In this document: piece by piece, positions 2,709 through 23,775 of the stretch
Numbering within the stretch: position 1 is the stretch's first letter
Layout of the letters: every line of letters starts with the position of its first letter
Virus record (IMG/VR): IMGVR_UViG_3300010885_017365
Span: 1 to 42,003 of that record
Strand: one strand, 5' to 3'
Length of the DNA: 42,003 nucleotides
From: a virus
Program-made: the position numbers and the translations under genes
The notes under the pieces: generated by a model
What the model was told of the DNA's origin: nothing
The model's input: the letters and a program-made list of their open reading frames with translations, nothing else
The model's database searches: none

Positions 2709-2737
2709 TTGACTTTTAATCAGTTTTAATGTATAAT
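2709..2737 (+). promoter_or_regulatory. Sigma70-type promoter giving a leaderless mRNA
   Basis: TTGACT (2709-2714), 17-nt spacer, TATAAT (2732-2737). Six nt later comes the ATG at 2744, which is the expected transcription start. TTTTAATC after the -35 box matches the recurrent phage promoter family. An in-frame ATG at 2729 overlaps the -10 box and cannot be on the transcript. Confidence 0.75.
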
Positions 2738-2743
2738 AGCTAT

Positions 2744-3205
2744 ATGTTTAAAAAATTATTCCAGCGTTTAGGTAGACATCGTGTAATTTTGGACAGGGAA
2801 AGCAACGAGCCTTATTTGGAGAGATATTATGTATTTCTCAAGGATCGTCAGCGTTTTCCATTTAATGTCTTTGTACACAAGTTCCTAAAGGGTGACAAGG
2901 ATGATGTACACGACCACCCGTGGTCCTATGCTACCTTAATCCTCAAAGGTGGATACTGGGAATGGATCCCTACTTTTGACGCTAAGGGAGAGAAAAATGG
3001 CGAGCGTGTATATTGGCGTGGGCCCGGACACTTTCGCAGATGTACAGCTAACTCCTATCACAGGATTGAGTTGGAGCCAGGAGTAACTGCTTGGACATTG
3101 TTTATGCCAGGAAGCCAAGAAAGAGACTGGGGTTTTTTAGTCAACAATGTGTGGACACAACACGAAGAATATTTTGATAAACGCAAGGAGAAGTTAAATG
3201 CCTAA
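2744..3205 (+). CDS. Cupin-like protein
   Basis: 153 residues from the ATG at 2744. This start was chosen because the upstream in-frame ATG lies inside the -10 box. The core has HDHPWSYATLILKGGYWE followed by a second half with YHRIEL and a conserved WTLFMPG, which reads as a small cupin barrel with possible metal-binding His residues. Function is not established; phage cupins of this kind are often annotated as hypothetical or dioxygenase-like. It is the first gene of a dense small-gene cluster and overlaps the next gene by 8 nt. Confidence 0.7.
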   Translation: MFKKLFQRLGRHRVILDRESNEPYLERYYVFLKDRQRFPFNVFVHKFLKGDKDDVHDHPWSYATLILKGGYWEWIPTFDAKGEKNGERVYWRGPGHFRRCTANSYHRIELEPGVTAWTLFMPGSQERDWGFLVNNVWTQHEEYFDKRKEKLNA

Positions 3206-8948: not shown

Positions 8949-9488
8949 ATGAAAACAGTAGGACATAAATTAGAGAAGTTTGTAGTAACCGGCGTTAAGC
9001 CAGGACAACCAGAAGATGCGTTCTTTGATATTACAGAAGAATCATTTCCGGGCAAATGGAAAGTAATCGTTTACTATCCAAAAGATTTTACATTCGTATG
9101 CCCAACAGAGATTGTAGCTTACGACAAGTTAGCAGGCGACTTTGCTGACCGTGACGCAGTATTGCTAACAGGTAGCACAGACAATGAGTTCTGTAAAGTT
9201 AGCTGGCAAAAAGCACATCCAGACTTACAAAAAATCACACACAATCAATTCGCTGACACACAGCGTGGTGAGTTGAGTTTGATTGAACAGTTGGGTGTAT
9301 TTTATGCTCCAGCAGGTGCCGCACTTCGCGCAACATTCATCGTTGATCCAGACAACGTTATCCAACACGTTACTGTTAACAACTTGAACGTTGGTCGTAG
9401 CCCAGAAGAAACATTGCGTATTCTCGATGCGTTACAAACTGGCGAACTTTGCGCTTGTAACCGTACAGTAGGCGGGGAGACTCTATAA
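8949..9488 (+). CDS. ahpC: Peroxiredoxin AhpC (2-Cys)
   Basis: 179 residues, close to full AhpC length. It reduces hydrogen peroxide, organic peroxides and peroxynitrite in the cytoplasm. The peroxidatic Cys51 lies in DFTFVCPTEI, and the resolving region is C168-A-C170 in GELCACNRTVGG, the C-x-C form found where AhpD rather than AhpF is the reductant. That fits the AhpD gene directly downstream, which starts on the overlapping TAATG. AAGGAG is a strong ribosome site. An intact two-gene peroxide-reducing unit on a phage is uncommon. Confidence 0.95.
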   Translation: MKTVGHKLEKFVVTGVKPGQPEDAFFDITEESFPGKWKVIVYYPKDFTFVCPTEIVAYDKLAGDFADRDAVLLTGSTDNEFCKVSWQKAHPDLQKITHNQFADTQRGELSLIEQLGVFYAPAGAALRATFIVDPDNVIQHVTVNNLNVGRSPEETLRILDALQTGELCACNRTVGGETL

Positions 9489-9994
9489 TGGCATTTAACG
9501 ACGCTATCAAAGAAGCGTTGCCAGACTACGCAAAGGATACTAAGTTAAACTTAGATGCTGTCCTTTTGCGTAGTACCTTAGATGCTGATGTTGCTATGGG
9601 TTGTGCTGTAGCCGCATTAGCCGCAACAGGCAACGGTAAAGTATTAAGTATTTTATTAGCAGATGGACCAGTACACGCAGAGTCAGCAATGACAGCGGCA
9701 AGCATTATGGCCCAAAACAACGTTTGGTATCCCTACGTTGAAATGGCTAATGATGAGCAACTGACTGGGTTGCCAGCACAGTTACGCATGAACGCGATTG
9801 CGAGTCATGGCGGAACAACTAAAGCAAACTTTGAAGCATTTAGTTTAGCGGCTAGTATTGTAGGTAAGTGCCATTTTTGCGTAAAGGCACACTACGACAC
9901 ACTCAAGAAGGAAGGCTACACAGTAGAACAACTTCGTGACATCGGTCGTATCGCAAGTGTTATGAATAGTGTAGCAAAGGTGTTGAATAGCTAA
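9488..9994 (+). CDS. ahpD: Alkylhydroperoxidase AhpD
   Basis: 168 residues of the AhpD/CMD fold. The active site GKCHFCVKAHYDTL has the CxxC pair with the downstream His expected for AhpD, the enzyme that re-reduces AhpC. Helical Ala-rich sequence surrounds it (MGCAVAALAATGNGK). It overlaps ahpC by one base (TAATG), so the pair should be made in fixed ratio. The electron donor for AhpD (a lipoyl protein in known systems) would have to come from the host. Its stop codon is part of the TAAATA box for the downstream riboswitch and terC. Confidence 0.92.
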   Translation: MAFNDAIKEALPDYAKDTKLNLDAVLLRSTLDADVAMGCAVAALAATGNGKVLSILLADGPVHAESAMTAASIMAQNNVWYPYVEMANDEQLTGLPAQLRMNAIASHGGTTKANFEAFSLAASIVGKCHFCVKAHYDTLKKEGYTVEQLRDIGRIASVMNSVAKVLNS

Positions 9995-9997
9995 ATA
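9992..9997 (+). promoter_or_regulatory. Late-type TAAATA box upstream of riboswitch
   Basis: GCTAAATATC overlapping the ahpD stop. A start about 6 nt downstream would begin the RNA at the 5' edge of the riboswitch, which supports the box being real. Confidence 0.5.
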
Positions 9998-10000
9998 TCT

Positions 10001-10080
10001 GTGGGGAGTAACCAGCCCGCAAGGGCTCTACACATCGTCAATACGGCTTAGGCCCGGGTGTAGACTAAGAGGTGAGACCA
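10001..10080 (+). ncRNA. yybP-ykoY manganese riboswitch
   Basis: GGGGAGTA at the 5' end, a GCAA-capped hairpin (AGCCC gcaa GGGCT), an arm CTACAC / GTGTAG holding the conserved TCGTCAATACGG and CCCGGG segments, and GGTGAGACC at the 3' end. This order matches the yybP-ykoY Mn2+ riboswitch as I know it. P1 looks short (about 4 bp). It sits 23 nt before a terC gene, the family's classic target, with AAGGAG in between, so control is probably at translation or access of the ribosome site. Metal binding is inferred from the family. Confidence 0.85.
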
Positions 10081-10102
10081 TTTTACTTTCAAGGAGAAGG
10101 AA

Positions 10103-10774
10103 ATGGATTTACATTTAGTTCAAGCAGTCTGGGCAGTTTTAGCTATCATTTTAATTGATATTGTTTTAGCCGGTGACAATGCTCTTGTTATTGGTATGGC
10201 TGCTAATCGTTTACCTGAAAATCAACGCAAGCGGGTAATACTATGGGGAACCGTAGGAGCAGTAGCTATTAGATTTGTCAGCGTAGCAATATTAACAAGT
10301 TTATTATTGATACCAGGACTTAGACTCATTGGTGGATTGGCATTAATCTATATTGGTTGGAAGTTGGCTTTCCAAGAAGCAGACCATAAAATTAGTGCCA
10401 AAGATACATTTTGGTCAGCAGTAGGAACTATTGTAGTAGCCGATGCTGTCATGGGCATTGACAATGCGTTAGGCATTGCGGCTGCCGCCAACGGTGACTT
10501 TGGTTTGGTAATCTTTGGATTGTTAGTTAGTGTTCCAATCATTTTGTTTGGATCAACAGTAATAGCCAAAGTATTAGCTCGCTGGCCTAATCTTATCTTT
10601 TTAGGTAGCTTTGTATTGTTCCTAGTTGCTATGCAAATGATTCTTAAAGAGCCGTTTATTGACACTTATGTAGATCCATTACATGATTGGATTGAGATGA
10701 AACTGCCTTGGTTAGTAGCTATCGTATTGACTGCCAAACAGTATTACAGAGCCCGAATTAAAAAATCAGTGTAG
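10103..10774 (+). CDS. TerC-family membrane protein (probable Mn2+ exporter)
   Basis: 223 residues with about seven hydrophobic helices. The two TerC signature helices carry acidic/Asn residues: IVLAGDNALVIGMA near residues 22-35 and MGIDNALGIAAAA near 118-130. TerC/Alx-type proteins export or adjust cytoplasmic Mn2+. The manganese riboswitch directly upstream supports this role. AAGGAG precedes the ATG. Nearby AhpCD, and the SOD farther along, tie manganese to oxidant defence. It could alternatively act in metal loading of exported proteins, as reported for some TerC members. Confidence 0.9.
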   Translation: MDLHLVQAVWAVLAIILIDIVLAGDNALVIGMAANRLPENQRKRVILWGTVGAVAIRFVSVAILTSLLLIPGLRLIGGLALIYIGWKLAFQEADHKISAKDTFWSAVGTIVVADAVMGIDNALGIAAAANGDFGLVIFGLLVSVPIILFGSTVIAKVLARWPNLIFLGSFVLFLVAMQMILKEPFIDTYVDPLHDWIEMKLPWLVAIVLTAKQYYRARIKKSV

Positions 10775-10796: not shown

Positions 10797-10880
10797 TAAA
10801 TAATACAACCGGGTACAAAGATAGAGTACCGCTGGAGCTCGTAACCAGTACCAAAAAGGATCCGAAAGGTCCTTTTTTAT
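10797..10880 (+). ncRNA. Candidate small RNA or structured 3' UTR
   Basis: A TAAATA box (10797-10802) is followed by about 45 nt able to form two short hairpins (GGTAC / GTACC and CTGG / CCAG) and then a rho-independent terminator, with no open reading frame. A transcript of about 70 nt from this box is plausible. It could equally be just the 3' end of the terC mRNA. Confidence 0.35.
10853..10878 (+). terminator. Rho-independent terminator after terC
   Basis: AAAAAGGATCC, a GAAA tetraloop, GGTCC and then six T residues. It closes the terC transcript or the candidate small RNA and isolates the following promoter. Confidence 0.85.
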
Positions 10881-10896
10881 TGTAATCTTATTTTTC

Positions 10897-12062: not shown

Positions 12063-13064
12063 ATGTCAAAAACTATCCTCGTCATAACAGATAATGTTCA
12101 AAATCAAATTAACGGAGTGGTCACGACTTTCAAAAACTTGGAAGATTATGCTGATGATGCTGGGTATCATATTGTTTATTGTGACCCCGGGCAGTTCCCT
12201 TATATTGATTGTCCTGGTTATCCTGAAGTTAAACTCTCGTGGCCTCACGGTATTTCTAAAAAGATTAAGGCGGTACAGCCGGATTATATTCACATCGCCA
12301 CAGAAGGCCCGGTAGGATTATTTGCTCGCTGGTGGTGTGAACGTAATAACATTCCTTATAACACTTCTTATCATACAGACTTTCCTAAGTTTCTTAAAAC
12401 TATGTATGGCATTCCTGCCAAGTGGACTTATTGGTATTTGCGTTGGTTTCATAAAAATAGTCATAAGGTGTTGGTAACTACAGAAAGTATTAAACAAGAT
12501 TTAGAACTACAAGGATTTAAAAATTTAGTAGTATGGACTCGTGGGGTAGATCGAACTATCTTTAACAGTAGATATCGCACAGACATTGTGGGTAATCGTC
12601 CTATTTTATTAAATGTTGGCCGTGTTAGCAAAGAAAAAGGATTAGATGATTTTTGTGAGTTAGTGTATCCTGGTGCTACTAAAATTATTGTCGGCGACGG
12701 CCCATATCGATCAGAATTACAACACAGATATCCTAATATATTATTTGCTGGAGCAAGAACAGGAATAGATTTAGCTCGTTATTATGCTCAAGCTGATGTA
12801 TTTGTTTTTCCCAGTCGTTCTGATACTTTTGGTGTAGTTAATATAGAAGCAATGGCTTGTGGCACTCCGGTTGCCGCTTATCCAGTTCCTGGGCCTATTG
12901 ACATTATTGATGAAGGAATAACAGGAAGTTTGAATAATAACTTAACTTTGGCTATTAGCCGTTGTTTAGCACTTAATCGTGACCAAGTAGAAAATTCCAG
13001 CCTAAAATGGACTTGGAGCGAGTGTTGGCGTATTTTTCAAGAAAATCTTGTTCCTATTGTATAA
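12063..13064 (+). CDS. GT4-family glycosyltransferase
   Basis: 333 residues with a two-domain GT-B layout. The N-terminal domain has NQINGVVTTF and TEGPVGLFARWW; the C-terminal domain has NVGRVSKEKG and then FPSRSDTFGVVNIEAMACG, holding the E-x7-E type donor-binding motif. It resembles alpha-mannosyl- or glucosyltransferases that act on lipids with a nucleotide-sugar donor. It is slightly shorter than the usual 350-400 residues. It follows the LpxH-like gene by 90 nt, a gap with a small palindrome (CAGTAT aaa ATACTG) and AAGG before the ATG. It may alter host lipopolysaccharide or lipid, perhaps to block superinfection, by inference. Confidence 0.88.
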   Translation: MSKTILVITDNVQNQINGVVTTFKNLEDYADDAGYHIVYCDPGQFPYIDCPGYPEVKLSWPHGISKKIKAVQPDYIHIATEGPVGLFARWWCERNNIPYNTSYHTDFPKFLKTMYGIPAKWTYWYLRWFHKNSHKVLVTTESIKQDLELQGFKNLVVWTRGVDRTIFNSRYRTDIVGNRPILLNVGRVSKEKGLDDFCELVYPGATKIIVGDGPYRSELQHRYPNILFAGARTGIDLARYYAQADVFVFPSRSDTFGVVNIEAMACGTPVAAYPVPGPIDIIDEGITGSLNNNLTLAISRCLALNRDQVENSSLKWTWSECWRIFQENLVPIV

Positions 13065-13075
13065 AATAGCATACA

Positions 13076-14173
13076 TCAATCTTCTATTAAACTAAAAATA
13101 TTCCCGCGAACTTGCGGATGTTTTAGTAAAGGAGTTTTAAGTATTTCAATTAGGTTATTCCTATTTGGATGATCTGCTTGCCATACTGCCATAGCGTTAA
13201 ATATTTCGTCTGTCAAATGGCCCCATTTTTGTAACAATGTAATTGAAATTTCTGGTTTAGATTTAAAAGTTAACTGCCATTCTAAATAACTTTCAAGCTC
13301 TAAGTAATTGTCTTGCTGTAGTATAAAACTAGTTTGCCATTGCTTTAAATTTATAAATTCATTGTTAGCTATCAAATTATCTAACACAGCTAGGTTTTTC
13401 TTTAGTCGAGTAAAGTTACCATTTTTCCTAACAATTTTATAAGTGTGTTCTGTAGCGGCATCAACACTAACATTAATTCTTACTATATGCGGCCAAAGAG
13501 GTTTAATTTTGTTTAAATTCTCTTCGGTCATTAGTATGCCGTTAGTTATTAAATGTAATCTAATATTTTTGTGCGGATTCTGTGCTAACTCAAGTAAATA
13601 GTCCCAATATAACGGACTAGCAAAAGCATCTCCTGATCCAGTTATACGAACTGTAACTACTTGTCCAGCATTTAACAAGTATGCTACTAATTCTTTTGCC
13701 TTATTATGAACTTTTACTAATTTTTGACTATCTTGATTTTCTAAATCAAGTGGATCCCAGTATATTAATTCATTGCGACAACTAGGGCATTGTAAGTTAC
13801 AGCTATCGTCATATGAAAATTTTACAGATGTGGGTCTATTTAACTCAGCATCAAGATTTTCTATTGGAATAATTGGGCTAGGAAATTTTTTATCAGCTAA
13901 CAGTAAATTCAATGGCGTACAAAAAGTTGTACAATCATCAAATACACTCTTCTTCATGTTATCTTGTATTCGTAATCGTTCAGGATTATTAATTATTTCT
14001 TCAACTGTATCAGTTAACAAGTTACCCGTATGAACTGGCAGCCAATCATAACAACAGTTGGTAATCCATCCGCCTTTTAGTATGTCATAATCTTTAAATG
14101 GAACTATACAAGCCTTGTTGATTAATTTGTTGATTAGTTGTTTTGGCTTAATAGTGTGTATGTTACGTGACAT
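13076..14173 (-). CDS. Radical SAM protein with N-terminal SPASM/twitch-like region
   Basis: 365 residues from the ATG at 14173, one base after the preceding stop; an upstream start at 14212 would overlap it by 38 nt. The CxxxCxxC cluster motif is unusually central (DDSCNLQCPSCR, near residue 125), followed by RITGSGDAFASP and INVSVDAATEHTY, normal radical-SAM strands. The N-terminal third carries Cys pairs (ACIVPF, NCCYDW, CTTFC) like a SPASM or twitch domain placed before the core. Such proteins use S-adenosylmethionine and a 4Fe-4S cluster for radical chemistry, often on peptides. The substrate is unknown. Last gene of the operon. Confidence 0.85.
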   Translation of the reverse strand: MSRNIHTIKPKQLINKLINKACIVPFKDYDILKGGWITNCCYDWLPVHTGNLLTDTVEEIINNPERLRIQDNMKKSVFDDCTTFCTPLNLLLADKKFPSPIIPIENLDAELNRPTSVKFSYDDSCNLQCPSCRNELIYWDPLDLENQDSQKLVKVHNKAKELVAYLLNAGQVVTVRITGSGDAFASPLYWDYLLELAQNPHKNIRLHLITNGILMTEENLNKIKPLWPHIVRINVSVDAATEHTYKIVRKNGNFTRLKKNLAVLDNLIANNEFINLKQWQTSFILQQDNYLELESYLEWQLTFKSKPEISITLLQKWGHLTDEIFNAMAVWQADHPNRNNLIEILKTPLLKHPQVRGNIFSLIED

Positions 14174-14174
14174 A

Positions 14175-15155
14175 TTATTTAAACTGTTCAGTTGTTGGGC
14201 TAACTTTGCCACACTGAGTAGCGCAACGAATTAACGGATCAAACCCCATCAAGTTTTCAATCTTGTTAAAATATTCAGAAGACATTATTTCTTCTAATGT
14301 GTTTACTTTTAAATTTGGTGTCATACCAATTTTATTTGCGTAATCAATTATGTATGAATACGTTGGGTTTCCAGCAGGCATATCCAGCCAGCAGCAAGGT
14401 GTTAGGTTACCATTTGCCCCTATATATAAACTGTTTTCTTCTTTGGCTTTACAAGTAATAACAGGCGCAGATTGAATACTATCTACTACATTTTTTCTTA
14501 TTTCTATGCTACGGTCAGTTGGATATAGTATATGACTAGTAGTTCCTTTTTTAGTTAGTACTACTAATCCGGTATCTTTAAATCTAGCAGAATTTTTAGC
14601 TTTAAATTCTCTAAACCCTAGCTCAACACTTAATGCTTCACATTGTTCTACTTGATGCTTGTTATGATCAAATATTAGCATATGCCAATTTGCTGAGCCG
14701 CCAGCAGCAATAAATGCTCGAGCATTTTCTATGATCTTATCCCATACCGTGCCAATTCTGTATAAACTATGAGTATCTGCTAGTCCGTCAATGCCAAAAG
14801 TAACTCTAACATTTTCTTTGGCAAGGTCTTCCCACCATTGCTTTGATTTTGCGCTTCCGTTAGTGTGTAACTCTAAAAATAGATTAGGGTTGTGTTTTCT
14901 TAAATATTGGAAGATTGCTAAGGTATCTTTAGCAACGATAGCATCACCAAGATTACCACATACATATAAAACTGTTAACTGTTTAATAAATTCAGGAGAG
15001 ATCCATTCTTTAAATTGTTCTATAGTAATCTCATCTTCCACTAGCCAAGGGTTTACTACTCCACCTTGCATATTTCTTGAGCACATAGGACAACTTGCTT
15101 GACACTTGCTAGTTATTTCTAAATGTATTCTTTTAATGTCAGATAATTTATACAT
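14175..15155 (-). CDS. Radical SAM/SPASM protein
   Basis: 326 residues. The radical-SAM motif CQASCPMCSR lies near residues 18-27, then VLYVCGNLGDA (the GGE-like strand, here with GNLGD) and FGIDGLADTHSLYR. The C-terminal part has a SPASM-type cluster region: TCKAKEENSLYIGANG, CCWLD and CATQC. It overlaps the gene before by one base (TAATG). Family members build or modify peptides or small molecules using auxiliary Fe-S clusters. Specific function unknown. Confidence 0.88.
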   Translation of the reverse strand: MYKLSDIKRIHLEITSKCQASCPMCSRNMQGGVVNPWLVEDEITIEQFKEWISPEFIKQLTVLYVCGNLGDAIVAKDTLAIFQYLRKHNPNLFLELHTNGSAKSKQWWEDLAKENVRVTFGIDGLADTHSLYRIGTVWDKIIENARAFIAAGGSANWHMLIFDHNKHQVEQCEALSVELGFREFKAKNSARFKDTGLVVLTKKGTTSHILYPTDRSIEIRKNVVDSIQSAPVITCKAKEENSLYIGANGNLTPCCWLDMPAGNPTYSYIIDYANKIGMTPNLKVNTLEEIMSSEYFNKIENLMGFDPLIRCATQCGKVSPTTEQFK

Positions 15156-16066
15156 TACTCAATCCATTTATTAATAATAACATCGGCACCACAAACACAT
15201 AATCCGTCAATGTTACATTTAACAGGCCCGTTAGGCCAAGTTATTTCTTCAGGGGTATTAATGTTACCTATAATACCATCAACACCGCAATAGGCTTTTT
15301 TAACATCACCCTTCCAATCAACATACAAAGACTTTATACCAATCTCGCAGGTATAGTTATTAAAATTAGTCATGCCGCGGCTTATAAAGTAATTTACAGT
15401 TGGCTTATACATTATAGTTCCGTCATCAAGATAGTAATCTGACTTAAGGTCTACGGGAAATTTGTAATTTTGTTTATGCGGGTGTGTTCCAACATCAAAC
15501 CAGTTAAACTGTTCTTCACTATAGTTGCCAACAGGGCCCATAATCCTCACAGCCTCTACAAACACATTATCTAAAGCATAATAATGATTATAAGCTTCTA
15601 TACACTTATCCCAATGCTTAGGATGCATCATTACTTTTACCATGACAAATGTATTTTTTGCTGACACAGTTACTTTTTCTTCAAAGCCAGGATCAACGAA
15701 CTCTGAATGCCAAGAAAATAAAATGTAATCGAGATTTTTAGAAATGTCTTCCCAGTATCTAACAGTTTTAGCGGCGTTAGAACTTATGCCTATAGTATGT
15801 CCAGCATCTTTAAATAATTGTGCCAGCTCAGGTAAAAAAGGACTTAAACTAGGTTCCCCACCAACCACGCTACAATCTATTGAAGGATAACGTTCAAACA
15901 ATATCTTAAAGAATCTACGAGCATTCTCCCATTCGTAATGATGATTCTTTCCTGTTTTATAATCTGGCCCGCAATAAGAACAATCGTTAGTGCAAATGTT
16001 ATTGATTAGCCAAGTTAGTCTAAAAGGAGCATTTTTAGATTGTTCTATTTTTATAATTTTTTTCAT
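15155..16066 (-). CDS. Radical SAM protein
   Basis: 303 residues. CTNDCSYCGP near residue 25 binds the radical-SAM cluster; SVVGGEPSLSP is the GGE motif; ISSNAAKT and ILFSWHSEF are later barrel strands. The C-terminal part (CEIGIKSLYVDWKG, YCGVDG, CNIDGLCVCGAD) is Cys-rich and probably holds a second cluster. It is preceded by the sulfotransferase-like gene with a 9-nt gap and followed by another radical-SAM gene with a TAATG overlap, so the four genes form one transcript. Function unknown. Confidence 0.88.
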   Translation of the reverse strand: MKKIIKIEQSKNAPFRLTWLINNICTNDCSYCGPDYKTGKNHHYEWENARRFFKILFERYPSIDCSVVGGEPSLSPFLPELAQLFKDAGHTIGISSNAAKTVRYWEDISKNLDYILFSWHSEFVDPGFEEKVTVSAKNTFVMVKVMMHPKHWDKCIEAYNHYYALDNVFVEAVRIMGPVGNYSEEQFNWFDVGTHPHKQNYKFPVDLKSDYYLDDGTIMYKPTVNYFISRGMTNFNNYTCEIGIKSLYVDWKGDVKKAYCGVDGIIGNINTPEEITWPNGPVKCNIDGLCVCGADVIINKWIE

Positions 16067-19641: not shown

Positions 19642-21342
19642 ATGCTTAAAAATACACAAAACGAAATCCTACAAACACTATATAAATTCAAAAAAGTGTT
19701 TTATTCAATTGGCATTTTTACAGCCGTTATTAACATTCTAATGTTAGTTCCGTCAATGTATATGATGGAAGTTTACGATAGAGTGTTGGCAAGTCACAAT
19801 CAATATACCTTGATTATGCTTACTGTAATGGCCGCAGGACTATATGGTCTTACTTCTGTTATTGAGTATTTCCGTAGCATGGTAGTACTACGTATTGGTG
19901 CTAAGATAGATGCTGAGTTAAACAAGCGAGTTTACACAGCATCATTTGAACAGAACTTAACTAGAGATGGAATGAACGCAGGACAAGCACTAACAGACTT
20001 AAACACTATTAGACAGTTTGTAACTGGCGCAGGCGTCTTTGCTTTCTTCGATGCTCCTTGGTTCCCAATTTATCTTGCTATTATTTTTATGTTTAATCCG
20101 TGGCTTGGTGTGTTTGCTTTAGTAAGCACAGTATTATTAGTATCCTTAGCTTGGCTTAACGAGTTAGTGTCAAACAAAGCATTAGCTGAGTCTAATACTG
20201 CCGCAGTTAAATCATCTAACTTAGCTGGCAACACATTGCGTAACGCAGAAGTTATTGACGCTATGGGTATGCTACCTAATATGCGTACACGTTGGTATGC
20301 CGAACACAGTAAGTTTTTGGATTTATATCAGTCAGCTACACAACGAGCACACAAGATTACAGCGGCTACTAAATTTGTTCGTACAGCGGCACAGAGTTTA
20401 ATCCTTGGTGTAGCGGCATGGCTAGTACTTAAAGGCGAAGTAACAGCAGGTATGATGATTGCGGCTAGTATTTTGTTAGGACGTACACTTGCTCCAGTAG
20501 AACAAGTAATTAGCGTATGGCGTCAGTGGGCTGGCGTAGTTAGTGCGTATAAACGACTAGACACATTGCTTACTAATAACCCAGTACGTGCTTCGAATAT
20601 GTCGTTGCCCAAGCCGGTAGGTTGCCTTAGTGTAGAAAATGTAAGTTCAGGACCAGCAGGCTCAACTGTTGCTGTAATTAAGAACTTAAACTTTGGTATT
20701 AACACAGGTGATTGTTTAGGTATTGTTGGACAGTCAGGCGCAGGTAAATCTACACTAGCTAGATTGTTAGTGGGCATTGGATCTCCGTTGTTTGGTACAG
20801 TTAGACTAGATGGCGCAGACATTAGCAAATGGAATAAGGATGAGTTAGGTCCACATATTGGTTACTTGCCACAAGACATTGAATTGTTTGCTGGTACTAT
20901 TAGTGAAAACATTGCTAGGTTTGGTAGTATTGATCCCGAAGCAGTAGTTAAAGCCGCTACACTAGCCGGTGTACACGATATGATCTTACGTATGCCTAAC
21001 GGGTATGATACACAAATTGGTGTAGATGGTAGCGGGTTATCGGGCGGTGAGAAACAACGTGTAGGTTTAGCTCGTGCGCTTTACAATGATCCGTCATTAG
21101 TAGTATTAGACGAACCTAATTCAAACTTAGACCAAGTAGGTGAGTCGGCATTGGCACAAGCATTACGACAACTACGATTGAATGGAACTACAGTAATATT
21201 AATTACACATCGTCCAGAAATTATTCAAGAAACTACACAGTTAATGGTCTTACACGGTGGCTTTATGACAGCGTTTGGTCCTACAGAAAAAGTATTATCC
21301 GAGATTATGAATTTAAACAAAGTAGCACAACCAAGCGAGTAA
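19642..21342 (+). CDS. Type I secretion ABC exporter (PrtD-like)
   Basis: 566 residues, the length of PrtD/AprD-type permease-ATPases. An N-terminal membrane domain (hydrophobic helices from about 19 to 290) is followed by an ATPase with Walker A GQSGAGKSTL, Q-loop LPQDIELF, signature LSGGEKQR, Walker B LVVLDEPN and switch ITHRP. It forms the inner-membrane motor that pushes unfolded cargo through the adaptor and TolC. No C39 peptidase domain is present, so cargo is not leader-cleaved. It lies 12 nt after the TIM-barrel gene and 4 nt before the adaptor gene. All motifs are intact. Confidence 0.95.
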   Translation: MLKNTQNEILQTLYKFKKVFYSIGIFTAVINILMLVPSMYMMEVYDRVLASHNQYTLIMLTVMAAGLYGLTSVIEYFRSMVVLRIGAKIDAELNKRVYTASFEQNLTRDGMNAGQALTDLNTIRQFVTGAGVFAFFDAPWFPIYLAIIFMFNPWLGVFALVSTVLLVSLAWLNELVSNKALAESNTAAVKSSNLAGNTLRNAEVIDAMGMLPNMRTRWYAEHSKFLDLYQSATQRAHKITAATKFVRTAAQSLILGVAAWLVLKGEVTAGMMIAASILLGRTLAPVEQVISVWRQWAGVVSAYKRLDTLLTNNPVRASNMSLPKPVGCLSVENVSSGPAGSTVAVIKNLNFGINTGDCLGIVGQSGAGKSTLARLLVGIGSPLFGTVRLDGADISKWNKDELGPHIGYLPQDIELFAGTISENIARFGSIDPEAVVKAATLAGVHDMILRMPNGYDTQIGVDGSGLSGGEKQRVGLARALYNDPSLVVLDEPNSNLDQVGESALAQALRQLRLNGTTVILITHRPEIIQETTQLMVLHGGFMTAFGPTEKVLSEIMNLNKVAQPSE

Positions 21343-21346
21343 TATT

Positions 21347-22345
21347 ATGTTAAAGACAGAAACTAAAAATTGGTTCAAACACAAATTTAATGTGGTAACT
21401 GATACTACAGATAAACAGGATGTGGAGCGTGACGAAGTACACTATGCTCGAGCAGGAATGTTAATTGTTACTGTTGGGTTCGGTGGCTTTATGTTGTGGG
21501 CTAGTATTGCTCCTTTAGATAAAGGTATTCCATCCCAAGGCACAGTTATTACAGACGGGCATCGTCAAACTATCCAAACAGCACAGGGTGGCATTGTTAA
21601 AGATATCCTAGTTAAAGATGGTGATAAAGTTCAAGCTGGACAAGTATTAGCAGTAATGAACGCTACACAGCAGTCAGCACAGAATACAGCACTACGTGAA
21701 TCTATTGCTAGTAAACAACGTCAACTAGCACTAATCAAGGAACAGTTAGAAGGCTATCGTGAACTTGCTCGAGATGGTTATATGTCACGCAACAAGTTAA
21801 TTGACGCAGAGCGTAACTACTCACAAGTTAGTTCAGCACTAGCCGAAGACCAAGCTAGGTTACCAGCAAGTAATTTTGATTTAGCCAACGCAGAACTTAA
21901 AGCACCAGTTGACGGTACTGTAGCTAACTTAGAAGTATATCAAAAAGGAGCAGTTATTCAAGCAGGTACTAAGGTAATGGAAATTGTTCCGCAGAATATG
22001 CCGTTGGTAATTGAAGCACACATTCAACCTACTATGATTGATAAGGTACACAAAGGTCTTCCAGTTGAAGTAATGTTTCCAGCATTTAATCAGCAAACTA
22101 CTCCTAAGATTCCAGCTACAGTTAGACTTGTAGCGGCTAACACTACACAGGATCCAAAGACAGGACAAGGATTCTACAAAGTACAAGTTGAAGTTACTGA
22201 AAAAGGTAAGAAGTTGTTGGCAGACAATCAAATCCGTCCAGGTATGCCAGCAGAAGTATTTGTTGTAACTGGTGAACGTACACTTATGTCTTATTTGTTT
22301 AAACCTGTATTAGATAGAGCACACTCTGCTCTGAGAGAAGAATAA
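21347..22345 (+). CDS. HlyD-family secretion adaptor, shortened
   Basis: 332 residues. One N-terminal membrane helix (about residues 38-54), lipoyl half (GGIVKDILVKDGDKVQAGQVL), helical hairpin, second lipoyl half (AELKAPVDGTVANL), beta domain, and the C-terminal GERTLMSYLFKPVLDRAH found in PrtE-type adaptors. It joins the ABC exporter to TolC across the periplasm. PrtE/HlyD proteins are normally about 430-480 residues; the loss is in the coiled-coil hairpin, here only about 85 residues. The stop overlaps the tolC start as TAATG. Function should be retained if TolC docks on the shorter hairpin. Confidence 0.93.
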   Translation: MLKTETKNWFKHKFNVVTDTTDKQDVERDEVHYARAGMLIVTVGFGGFMLWASIAPLDKGIPSQGTVITDGHRQTIQTAQGGIVKDILVKDGDKVQAGQVLAVMNATQQSAQNTALRESIASKQRQLALIKEQLEGYRELARDGYMSRNKLIDAERNYSQVSSALAEDQARLPASNFDLANAELKAPVDGTVANLEVYQKGAVIQAGTKVMEIVPQNMPLVIEAHIQPTMIDKVHKGLPVEVMFPAFNQQTTPKIPATVRLVAANTTQDPKTGQGFYKVQVEVTEKGKKLLADNQIRPGMPAEVFVVTGERTLMSYLFKPVLDRAHSALREE

Positions 22346-23775
22346 TGAAAAAGTCTTTATTAACTATTGCCGCTGTTGCTACACTAGCATTACCTGGCAC
22401 TAGCCAAGCATTGGATTTAATGCAAGCATATGACTTAGCACTAACTAATGATCCCTCTTATCGCGCCGCTACTAAAGAGTTTGAAGCAGGCGATGCTAAT
22501 AGGATTATTGGACGCTCAGGATTATTACCTCAATTAAGTGCTAACTATACTAATGCTAATAATTCTAGTAAGATTAATCAACCTAACACAGGTATCTTTA
22601 CACAGAACTATCCAAGTAATAACGGCACAATTCAAATTACACAAGCATTGATTAACTTACAAGCATGGGCTAGTGCCAAACAAGGATACGCACAAGCTGA
22701 CGTAGCCAAGGCTAAGTTAGTATACAACTCACAGGACTTGTTAATCCGCACACTACAGTCTTATACCGAAGTGTTAAACTATCAAGATCAAATTGAATAT
22801 TTGACAACACAACGTAATGCGTTTAAAGAACAGTTAACTATTAATGAACGCAGACTTAAAGCTGGTGATGGTACTGTTACTGATGTTTTGGAAACTCGTG
22901 CGCAATATGAATTAGCTGAAGTACAGTTAATTGAAGCTAAGGATAACTTGGCCAATACTAAACGTAGGTTAGAAGCTATGACTGGAGTTACAATTAATTC
23001 TGCGGCAGATATTAAAAAGTTATCCAAGTCGTTTAAGGTAGCCAACGTATTGCCAGCACAATTTGATGAATGGAAGGAAAGTGCGTTGTCTAATAACGCA
23101 GAGATCCAAGCAACTAAACATTCCGAAGAAGTAGCACATCAAGAGTATAAGAAACAGTTAACTAATAATGCTCCAACATTAAATGCCGTAGCTAGTTGGA
23201 ACCAACAAAACTCTGCTTATACCTCAACTATTAGTCAACAGTCCAATACAAGTATGATTGGTATACAAGCTACTTGGGTATTGTCTAACGGTGGACAAAC
23301 AATAGGATTAATGAAACAATCTTTGGCTAACTGGGAAAAAGCACAAGCTGATACAGAAGTAGTACAAAATCGTATTGTAACTGAATTACGTAAACAATAT
23401 GACTCCGTAGTATCCAGTAAACAAAAGGTAGCAAGTTTGGAACGTGCTGTTGAATCCGCTACTGAACTTACCAAGGCAATGCGTAAAAGTGTACAGGCCG
23501 GCGAACGTATTTCGGTTGACGTATTATTAGCGGATAAAACCCGTGCTAACGCTGAAAAAGATTTAGCACAAGCCAAGTATGCTTATCTAGCCGCAGTACT
23601 TAAATTAAAGCAATTAGCAGGTAATTTAACTGTACAGGACTTAGAACAAGTAGCTGGCAACTTTGAGCGTGATCCAAATGCTCCAAAAGCAACAACGCCA
23701 GTGCCACAACAAGTAGCTAACAATGCTACAGTTACAGTACATAAACTAGTACTTCCAGATTTATTAGTTAAATAA
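22345..23775 (+). CDS. TolC-family outer membrane channel
   Basis: 476 residues with a signal peptide (MKKSLLTIAAVATLALPGTSQA) and the duplicated TolC plan: LMQAYDLALTNDPSY opens repeat one, with long helices (NQIEYLTTQ region, RLKAGDGTVTDVLETRAQY) and the second-repeat counterpart (VQAGERISVDVLLADKTRANAEK). It forms the trimeric outer-membrane exit duct for the type I system. Full length, no breaks. Third machine gene in one operon with the ABC and adaptor genes, so the phage brings a whole secretion machine rather than relying on host TolC. Confidence 0.95.
   Translation: MKKSLLTIAAVATLALPGTSQALDLMQAYDLALTNDPSYRAATKEFEAGDANRIIGRSGLLPQLSANYTNANNSSKINQPNTGIFTQNYPSNNGTIQITQALINLQAWASAKQGYAQADVAKAKLVYNSQDLLIRTLQSYTEVLNYQDQIEYLTTQRNAFKEQLTINERRLKAGDGTVTDVLETRAQYELAEVQLIEAKDNLANTKRRLEAMTGVTINSAADIKKLSKSFKVANVLPAQFDEWKESALSNNAEIQATKHSEEVAHQEYKKQLTNNAPTLNAVASWNQQNSAYTSTISQQSNTSMIGIQATWVLSNGGQTIGLMKQSLANWEKAQADTEVVQNRIVTELRKQYDSVVSSKQKVASLERAVESATELTKAMRKSVQAGERISVDVLLADKTRANAEKDLAQAKYAYLAAVLKLKQLAGNLTVQDLEQVAGNFERDPNAPKATTPVPQQVANNATVTVHKLVLPDLLVK

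Follow-up and report, generated by a model that had tools for sequence, protein, structure and literature searches.

A compact yybP-ykoY-class leader RNA probably controls translation of terC in T4-like phages

In this study, we analysed a 42,003-base stretch of viral DNA (hereafter, the window), a fragment available as an IMG/VR virus record, and describe upstream of its terC gene an RNA element that we consider, with good though not complete confidence, to be a phage-adapted, compact member of the yybP-ykoY class, which controls terC translation through a start-codon hairpin and is switched on by Mn2+. Several of its features look new, namely, a transcription start probably located on the first G's of the aptamer, the loss of helix P4, and a covarying hairpin formed between the 3' end of the aptamer and the start codon.

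The elements of the locus are listed in Table 1. On the + strand, the TAAATA box is followed by five bases and then by GGGGAGUAAC at position 10003; the aptamer reads GGGGAGUAAC ... CGUCAAUACGG ... GAGGUGAGACC, with the terC start 23 nt downstream. The encoded protein matches PF03741 (5.8e-42; 143.9 bits against a cut-off of 27.8) over profile positions 2-177 of 178, as well as PHROG 7180 (7.7e-42).

Table 1. Features of the terC leader region in the window
Feature	Position	Strand	Remarks
TAAATA, T4-type late-promoter-like box	9992-9997	+	RNA predicted to start at 10003 or an adjacent base
Mn2+ (yybP-ykoY-class) aptamer, compact, without P4	10003-10079	+	R2 model and A2 covariation
5' strands of P1.1, L1 and P1.2	10003-10004, 10005-10010, 10011-10013	+	pair with 10071-10079
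P2 hairpin	10014-10027	+	AGCCC-GCAA-GGGCU; covariation in A2
P3.1/L3/P3.2	10028-10063	+	CUACAC(A)UCG / CGGGUGUAG
L3	10038-10044	+	UCAAUAC; between P3.1 and P3.2
P3.2	10045-10047 and 10052-10054	+	GGC/GCC
Short linker replacing helix P4	10064-10070	+	6-7 nt
3' strands of P1.2, L1 (GUGAGA) and P1.1 (CC)	10071-10079	+	end of aptamer, GAGGUGAGACC
Predicted OFF hairpin	10078-10083 with 10101-10106	+	CCAUUU/AAAUGG; encloses Shine-Dalgarno, pairs start codon
Shine-Dalgarno	10091-10096	+	AAGGAG
terC, 223-aa TerC-family membrane protein	10103-10774	+	ATG at 10103; PF03741, PHROG 7180

A search with the TerC protein of the window returned 80 viral loci, many with the element immediately upstream, and pattern scans returned 47, 72 and 17 overlapping viral loci, for a total of 62 distinct leaders. 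In this set, all intact readable downstream genes belong to the TerC family, the unreadable cases being contigs that end in or just past the leader (e.g., loci L101, L213, and L223) and L233, from which most of terC is deleted. Three TerC subfamilies are found downstream: short MeeF-like, 'GGENALVIAMASK', and long Alx-like. A conserved 42-codon membrane ORF (MGTFA.LAS.PF..) is located between the riboswitch and the long Alx-like terC in L104 (positions 1319-1447) and L220.

The secondary structure is supported by covariation among 35 distinct phage elements (alignment A2). Standard pairs fill 96.3% of the pair cells, compared to 85.6% in shuffled alignments (0 of 500 as high), and double-sided changes are seen in 15 of the 24 pairs, compared to 9.0 in shuffles (0 of 500 reaching 15); structures slid along the alignment yield such changes in 8 pairs at most. 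For P2, 98.3% of the cells are paired and 4 of the 7 pairs display double-sided changes, with paired cells reaching 98.0% in P3.1 and 88.8% in P3.2, and the partners of P1.2 change in concert as judged by eye (AC/GU, GC/GC, GU/AC, and GUCC/GGAC). The 5' strand GGGGAGUA of the P1.1/L1 region is invariant in A2, as is GUGAGACC on the 3' strand, which the search pattern had required; more generally, part of the L1/L3 invariance was demanded by the pattern search, and the core is also present in leaders found via the protein alone. RGACC-type variants of the 3' strand occur among further leaders. Folded on its own, the window leader gives an unremarkable thermodynamic fold (z -0.70), so that single-sequence folding would have missed the element.

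An Infernal search with Rfam model RF00080 had been proposed in the earlier note, which counted a covariance score below threshold against the element. RF00080 has no match in the window, at the gathering score or up to E=10, which formally is such an outcome. This rule does not hold up in our view, since the proven Mn2+ riboswitch of E. coli mntP fails it as well, reaching only 41.6 bits against the cut-off of 45; for the same reason, we do not take the miss as a negative result, nor does the 45-bit threshold define the class, since a defining member falls below it. A related phage leader (L081, the same as L059) obtains 42.9 bits, also under the cut-off. In the run that scored mntP below the cut-off, E. 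coli alx was not listed by this 177-position model at E 0.1. RF00080 misses the phage elements and some bacterial ones, and given that a whole group is overlooked, similar phage and bacterial leaders have probably been missed.

Two further covariance models connect the phage and bacterial leaders. R1 was built from the 35 phage elements, that of the window included, and R2 from 18 bacterial terC leaders (Paenibacillus, Ralstonia, Cupriavidus, and others), with all phage, Polynucleobacter, and E. coli sequences excluded from its rows. Because R1 matches guided the gathering of the R2 rows, the independence of the two models concerns their sequence content and does not extend to row discovery; the outside anchors for R2 are RF00080 matches (4 of the 18 rows also reach E<0.1 with that model) and the detection of alx and mntP. 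With filters off, the sole significant R2 match in the window is the aptamer (10003-10079, 24.5 bits, E=3.6e-4), the second-best site having E=0.28. R2 also detects alx (46.0 bits), mntP (29.6 bits), and the phage leaders. R1, in turn, matches bacterial terC leaders, with the highest scores outside phages in Polynucleobacter (48-52 bits), followed by Ralstonia (about 19-28 bits) and Paenibacillus (about 16-24 bits); in E. coli, it scores alx at 20.6 bits (E=0.007) and mntP weakly (15.4 bits, E=0.24). Collectively, the R2 match and the covariation in A2, two independent tests that place the element above chance, and the TerC gene downstream bear out the claim of the earlier note that a yybP-ykoY Mn2+-class element lies directly before terC, and the comparative evidence across viral leaders does the same for the phage setting that it had assumed.

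The core of the class, L1 (GGGGAGUA/GAGACC, 10003-10010 and 10074-10079) and the L3 adenosine loop (10038-10044), is present in the window, and the element sits, as is typical of the class, in the 5' UTR of a Mn2+ homeostasis gene. With yybP-ykoY members (RF00080; E. coli alx and mntP; B. subtilis ykoY/meeY), the phage form shares the GGGGAGUA L1 strand, L3 after UCG, the P1.1/P1.2/P2/P3 layout, the GAGACC 3' strand, and the TerC target; E. coli alx has the same AC/GU P1.2 and seems to lack P2. The published aptamer is a four-way junction comprising P1.1, P1.2, P2, P3, and P4, in which Mn2+ stabilises P1.1 (PMC6754395). From our own comparison by position with A48 of the X. oryzae RNA in that paper, A10040 in L3 is likely the Mn2+-sensing adenosine. 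Unlike in RF00080 members, the four-way junction is absent from the phage form, with 6-7 nt at the position of P4; P1.1 is a GG/CC helix at the predicted 5' end, a late-promoter-like box replaces the bacterial promoter, and the start-codon-pairing platform spans 17-24 nt. The median length at the P4 position is 6 nt in the 62 phage leaders, 14 in Polynucleobacter, and 29 in other bacteria; 35 of 36 other bacteria carry a P4 hairpin, Polynucleobacter a tiny one, and phages none. Judged from these lengths, the series reads as a stepwise loss of P4, with Polynucleobacter as an intermediate.

Because the metal site (L1/L3) lies outside P4, we regard the form lacking this helix as a structural variant. 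Nevertheless, with P4 lost and P1.1 minimal, binding may differ, and the element could be a yybP-ykoY descendant that responds to another divalent ion or, in an alx-like manner, to alkaline pH, rather than being primarily a Mn2+ sensor. This appears improbable considering that the core of L1 and L3 is retained together with the UCA adenosine and that the readable downstream genes all encode TerC, the target of the Mn2+-responsive bacterial members. Hence our preference for Mn2+ as the presumptive ligand of the phage variant.

CCAU at the 3' end of the aptamer, together with the variable bases that extend it, can pair with the start-codon region (the complementary extension followed by AUGG), the partners being CCAUUU/AAAUGG in the window, CCAUAA/UUAUGG in most relatives, and CCAUUUUAA/UUAAAAUGG in others. 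Own partners pair at -4.55 kcal/mol versus -3.53 for permuted ones, with 0 of 10,000 permutations as good (P<1e-4), and the extension alone (beyond CCAU/AUGG) gives P=0.0026 over 15 distinct combinations, although kinship and incomplete independence of the sequences cause these P values to overstate the support; the advantage of own partners persists when each distinct strand is represented by a single row (n=17). Chance complementarity of CCAU and AUGG due to an ATGG start context was rejected by permuting the partners beyond those four bases. In the ligand-free ensemble, the hairpin has a mean probability of 0.86 (1.00 for the pairs in the window), with the AUG unpaired at 0.06. Forcing P1.1 and P1.2 raises AUG accessibility from 0.06 to 0.46 on average, and to only 0.09 in the window itself. 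The forced ON state costs about 12 kcal/mol on average in metal-free calculations, which leave out docking, metal, and kinetics; with a P1.1 of only two base pairs, the energy balance rests on the docking thus omitted.

Loci L019, L033, and L054 carry a long-platform sister variant (90-115 bases), in which CCAU is engaged in a strong hairpin and both the Shine-Dalgarno and the AUG are paired; when CCAU is blocked, the fold shifts to a long alternative helix and the Shine-Dalgarno region opens. In L019 and L054, L3 is UCAAUUC, not UCAAYAC. As modelled, the short and long platforms both predict that Mn2+ turns the switch on, as in bacteria, and ON is therefore the direction that we would expect. 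Several other mechanisms were considered and discarded. The conserved GAGGUG is not retained as a decoy Shine-Dalgarno because the bases preceding it vary (GAGGUGAG, GCGGUGAG, GCAGUGAG, and GAUGUGAG). An OFF helix between the 5' GGGAGUAA and the pre-Shine-Dalgarno UUACUUUC is found in the window fold and is not kept in most relatives. For transcription attenuation, the window offers just 23 nt and no terminator-like site between 10079 and 10103.

T4-type late promoters have a TATAAATA/TAAATA box that gp55 recognises and that stands at a constant distance from the start, and transcription in T4 starts about six bases past TAAATA. With that spacing, the first nucleotide of the window RNA would be the initial G of GGGGAGUA or a neighbouring base. 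TAAATA is found 4-7 nt before GGGG in all 49 distinct phage leaders, which were collected without TAAATA in the query, and before the aptamer in none of 46 bacterial leaders; this constant spacing lends comparative support to the proposal of the earlier note that the box sets the start of the RNA at the edge of the riboswitch, although the exact start site and the use of a late sigma factor are predicted from sequence. Across the window, TAAATA is depleted (41 copies versus 78 expected), and 10 of the 41 copies precede gene starts by a short distance. No sigma-70-like promoter is evident near 9950-10000 of the window.

The T4-like affiliation of the phage is supported by a T4-type clamp loader and a GroES-like head protein encoded in the window, together with gp55, the T4 late sigma factor, in 4 large relatives (214-357 kb); the lifestyle is presumably lytic. 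Gp55 was not found in the 42,003-base window fragment, and the upstream gene ends beside TAAATA, both of which would fit with the box being an AT-rich by-product rather than a promoter and terC being transcribed from further upstream. We find this unlikely in view of the fixed position of the box in the phage leaders versus its absence from the bacterial ones, and no phage leader has a second TAAATA in the 45 nt upstream. Another TAAATA does occur between terC and the next gene; the ~75 nt after it fold well (10797-10885, +; z -2.43) and end in a hairpin followed by a T run (GGATCCGAAAGGTCCTTTTTT). This segment is possibly a late-expressed small RNA or a terC terminator, and its 15-base core is absent from all other loci examined.

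We tentatively favour a model in which a host Mn2+ riboswitch, having lost P4, with its 5' base at or near a late start and its 3' end competing for the start codon, has become a minimal late-infection AND gate, such that TerC production requires both the late sigma factor and high free Mn2+. With the RNA initiated by the late promoter on the aptamer's first G or an adjacent base, the sensor would be the extreme 5' end of the message. When Mn2+ is absent, the last bases of the aptamer, CCAUUU, would pair with AAAUGG and exclude the ribosome; when it is present, docking of L1 and L3 about the ion would be accompanied by formation of P1.2 and of P1.1, a helix of just two base pairs (GG/CC), which would pull CC out of the start-codon hairpin and allow TerC to be made. 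The protein would thus appear only late in infection and at high free Mn2+, which it would probably export or redistribute.

A late-promoter-like box adjoining a start-codon hairpin is also reminiscent of T4 genes e and soc, in which early read-through RNA has its start concealed by a hairpin, whereas late transcription, by beginning inside that hairpin, frees the start. Such early/late control would leave the conserved aptamer unexplained and, moreover, the predicted late start precedes the entire hairpin of the window (10078-10106), which would be part of both transcripts; we thus give this scenario very little credence compared to the Mn2+-responsive one.

The closest bacterial protein and the closest bacterial RNA both come from Polynucleobacter, making a Polynucleobacter-like (Burkholderiales) source host likely, a plausible but unproven origin. 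The terC leaders of this genus, found in 34 of 121 genomes searched, accompany the closest bacterial TerC proteins (61-63%) and differ from the phage form in the retained tiny P4 hairpin, the P1.2 helix GUAGCC/GGCAAGACC, and the lack of TAAATA. Among viruses, the riboswitch is absent from the closest relative of the window TerC (L001, 88%) and from the remainder of its clade, and is present in a large sister clade. Three riboswitch state changes suffice on the viral TerC tree, a quick tree with many weakly supported forks, and thus the window probably either gained its riboswitch separately or is alone in having retained it.

In L052, L055, and L056, the 5' part of the aptamer is gone through a natural deletion situated about 100 nt before terC, with TAAATA, the 3' end (ACAAAACTGTGATACC), the platform, and terC kept. 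These loci and the riboswitch-less clade imply that the element is dispensable in some phages. By extension, it might be a relic, a structured 5' UTR that was copied together with terC from a host and has since lost its switching, the start-codon hairpin only dampening translation. We see only a slim chance of this, because compensatory changes in P2, P3, the P4-equivalent P3.2, and the platform-start codon pairing point to continuing selection on both folds.

Alx and MeeY, both of the TerC family, function in Mn export or as metalation factors, and the corresponding genes, alx and ykoY/meeY, are Mn-induced via the yybP-ykoY class (PMC12096827). A late, Mn-gated phage TerC could relieve Mn2+ excess or assist Mn loading of exported proteins that depend on this metal. 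Directly upstream of the riboswitch (8949-9994, +) are genes for an AhpC/TSA-like peroxiredoxin and a CMD (AhpD-like) protein, which hint at an oxidative-stress setting; in L011, terC directly follows a matching peroxiredoxin C-terminus, and both the riboswitch and the CMD gene are missing. Elsewhere in the window, an ABC transporter with a membrane domain, a PHROG 4949 protein, and an outer-membrane efflux (TolC-like) protein are encoded in a row (19642-23775, +), in what looks like a phage-borne type I secretion operon; three adjacent radical SAM-like proteins (13076-16066, -) have a glycosyltransferase alongside (12063-13064), and the product of 2729-3205 (+) matches PHROG 4786, annotated as cysteine dioxygenase (6.8e-37).

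Phage-borne riboswitches are described as rare, and those found in our literature search are mainly glutamine riboswitches. Methylophage Melnitz and pelagiphages carry one (PMC9004378), likewise in aquatic phages, which differs from the element described here in ligand, RNA class, and target (the tmRNA gene rather than a metal gene). Our search of the open-access literature, with most subscription papers outside its scope, found no earlier report of a phage Mn2+ riboswitch. TerC-family genes are also present in cultured phages (Otagovirus and others), with <40% identity in the cases checked; 0 of the 6 leaders examined match R1 or R2, and cultured phages gave no DNA match to a representative leader.

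Finally, the placement of the element before terC suggests that this phage and dozens of uncultured relatives tune metal levels in infected cells. If so, a metal-sensing switch conserved in dozens of phages, with targets from three TerC subfamilies, would mean that the metal level is read in late infection. The phage element would also represent a natural minimal Mn2+ aptamer, which may help to ask which helices sensing needs.
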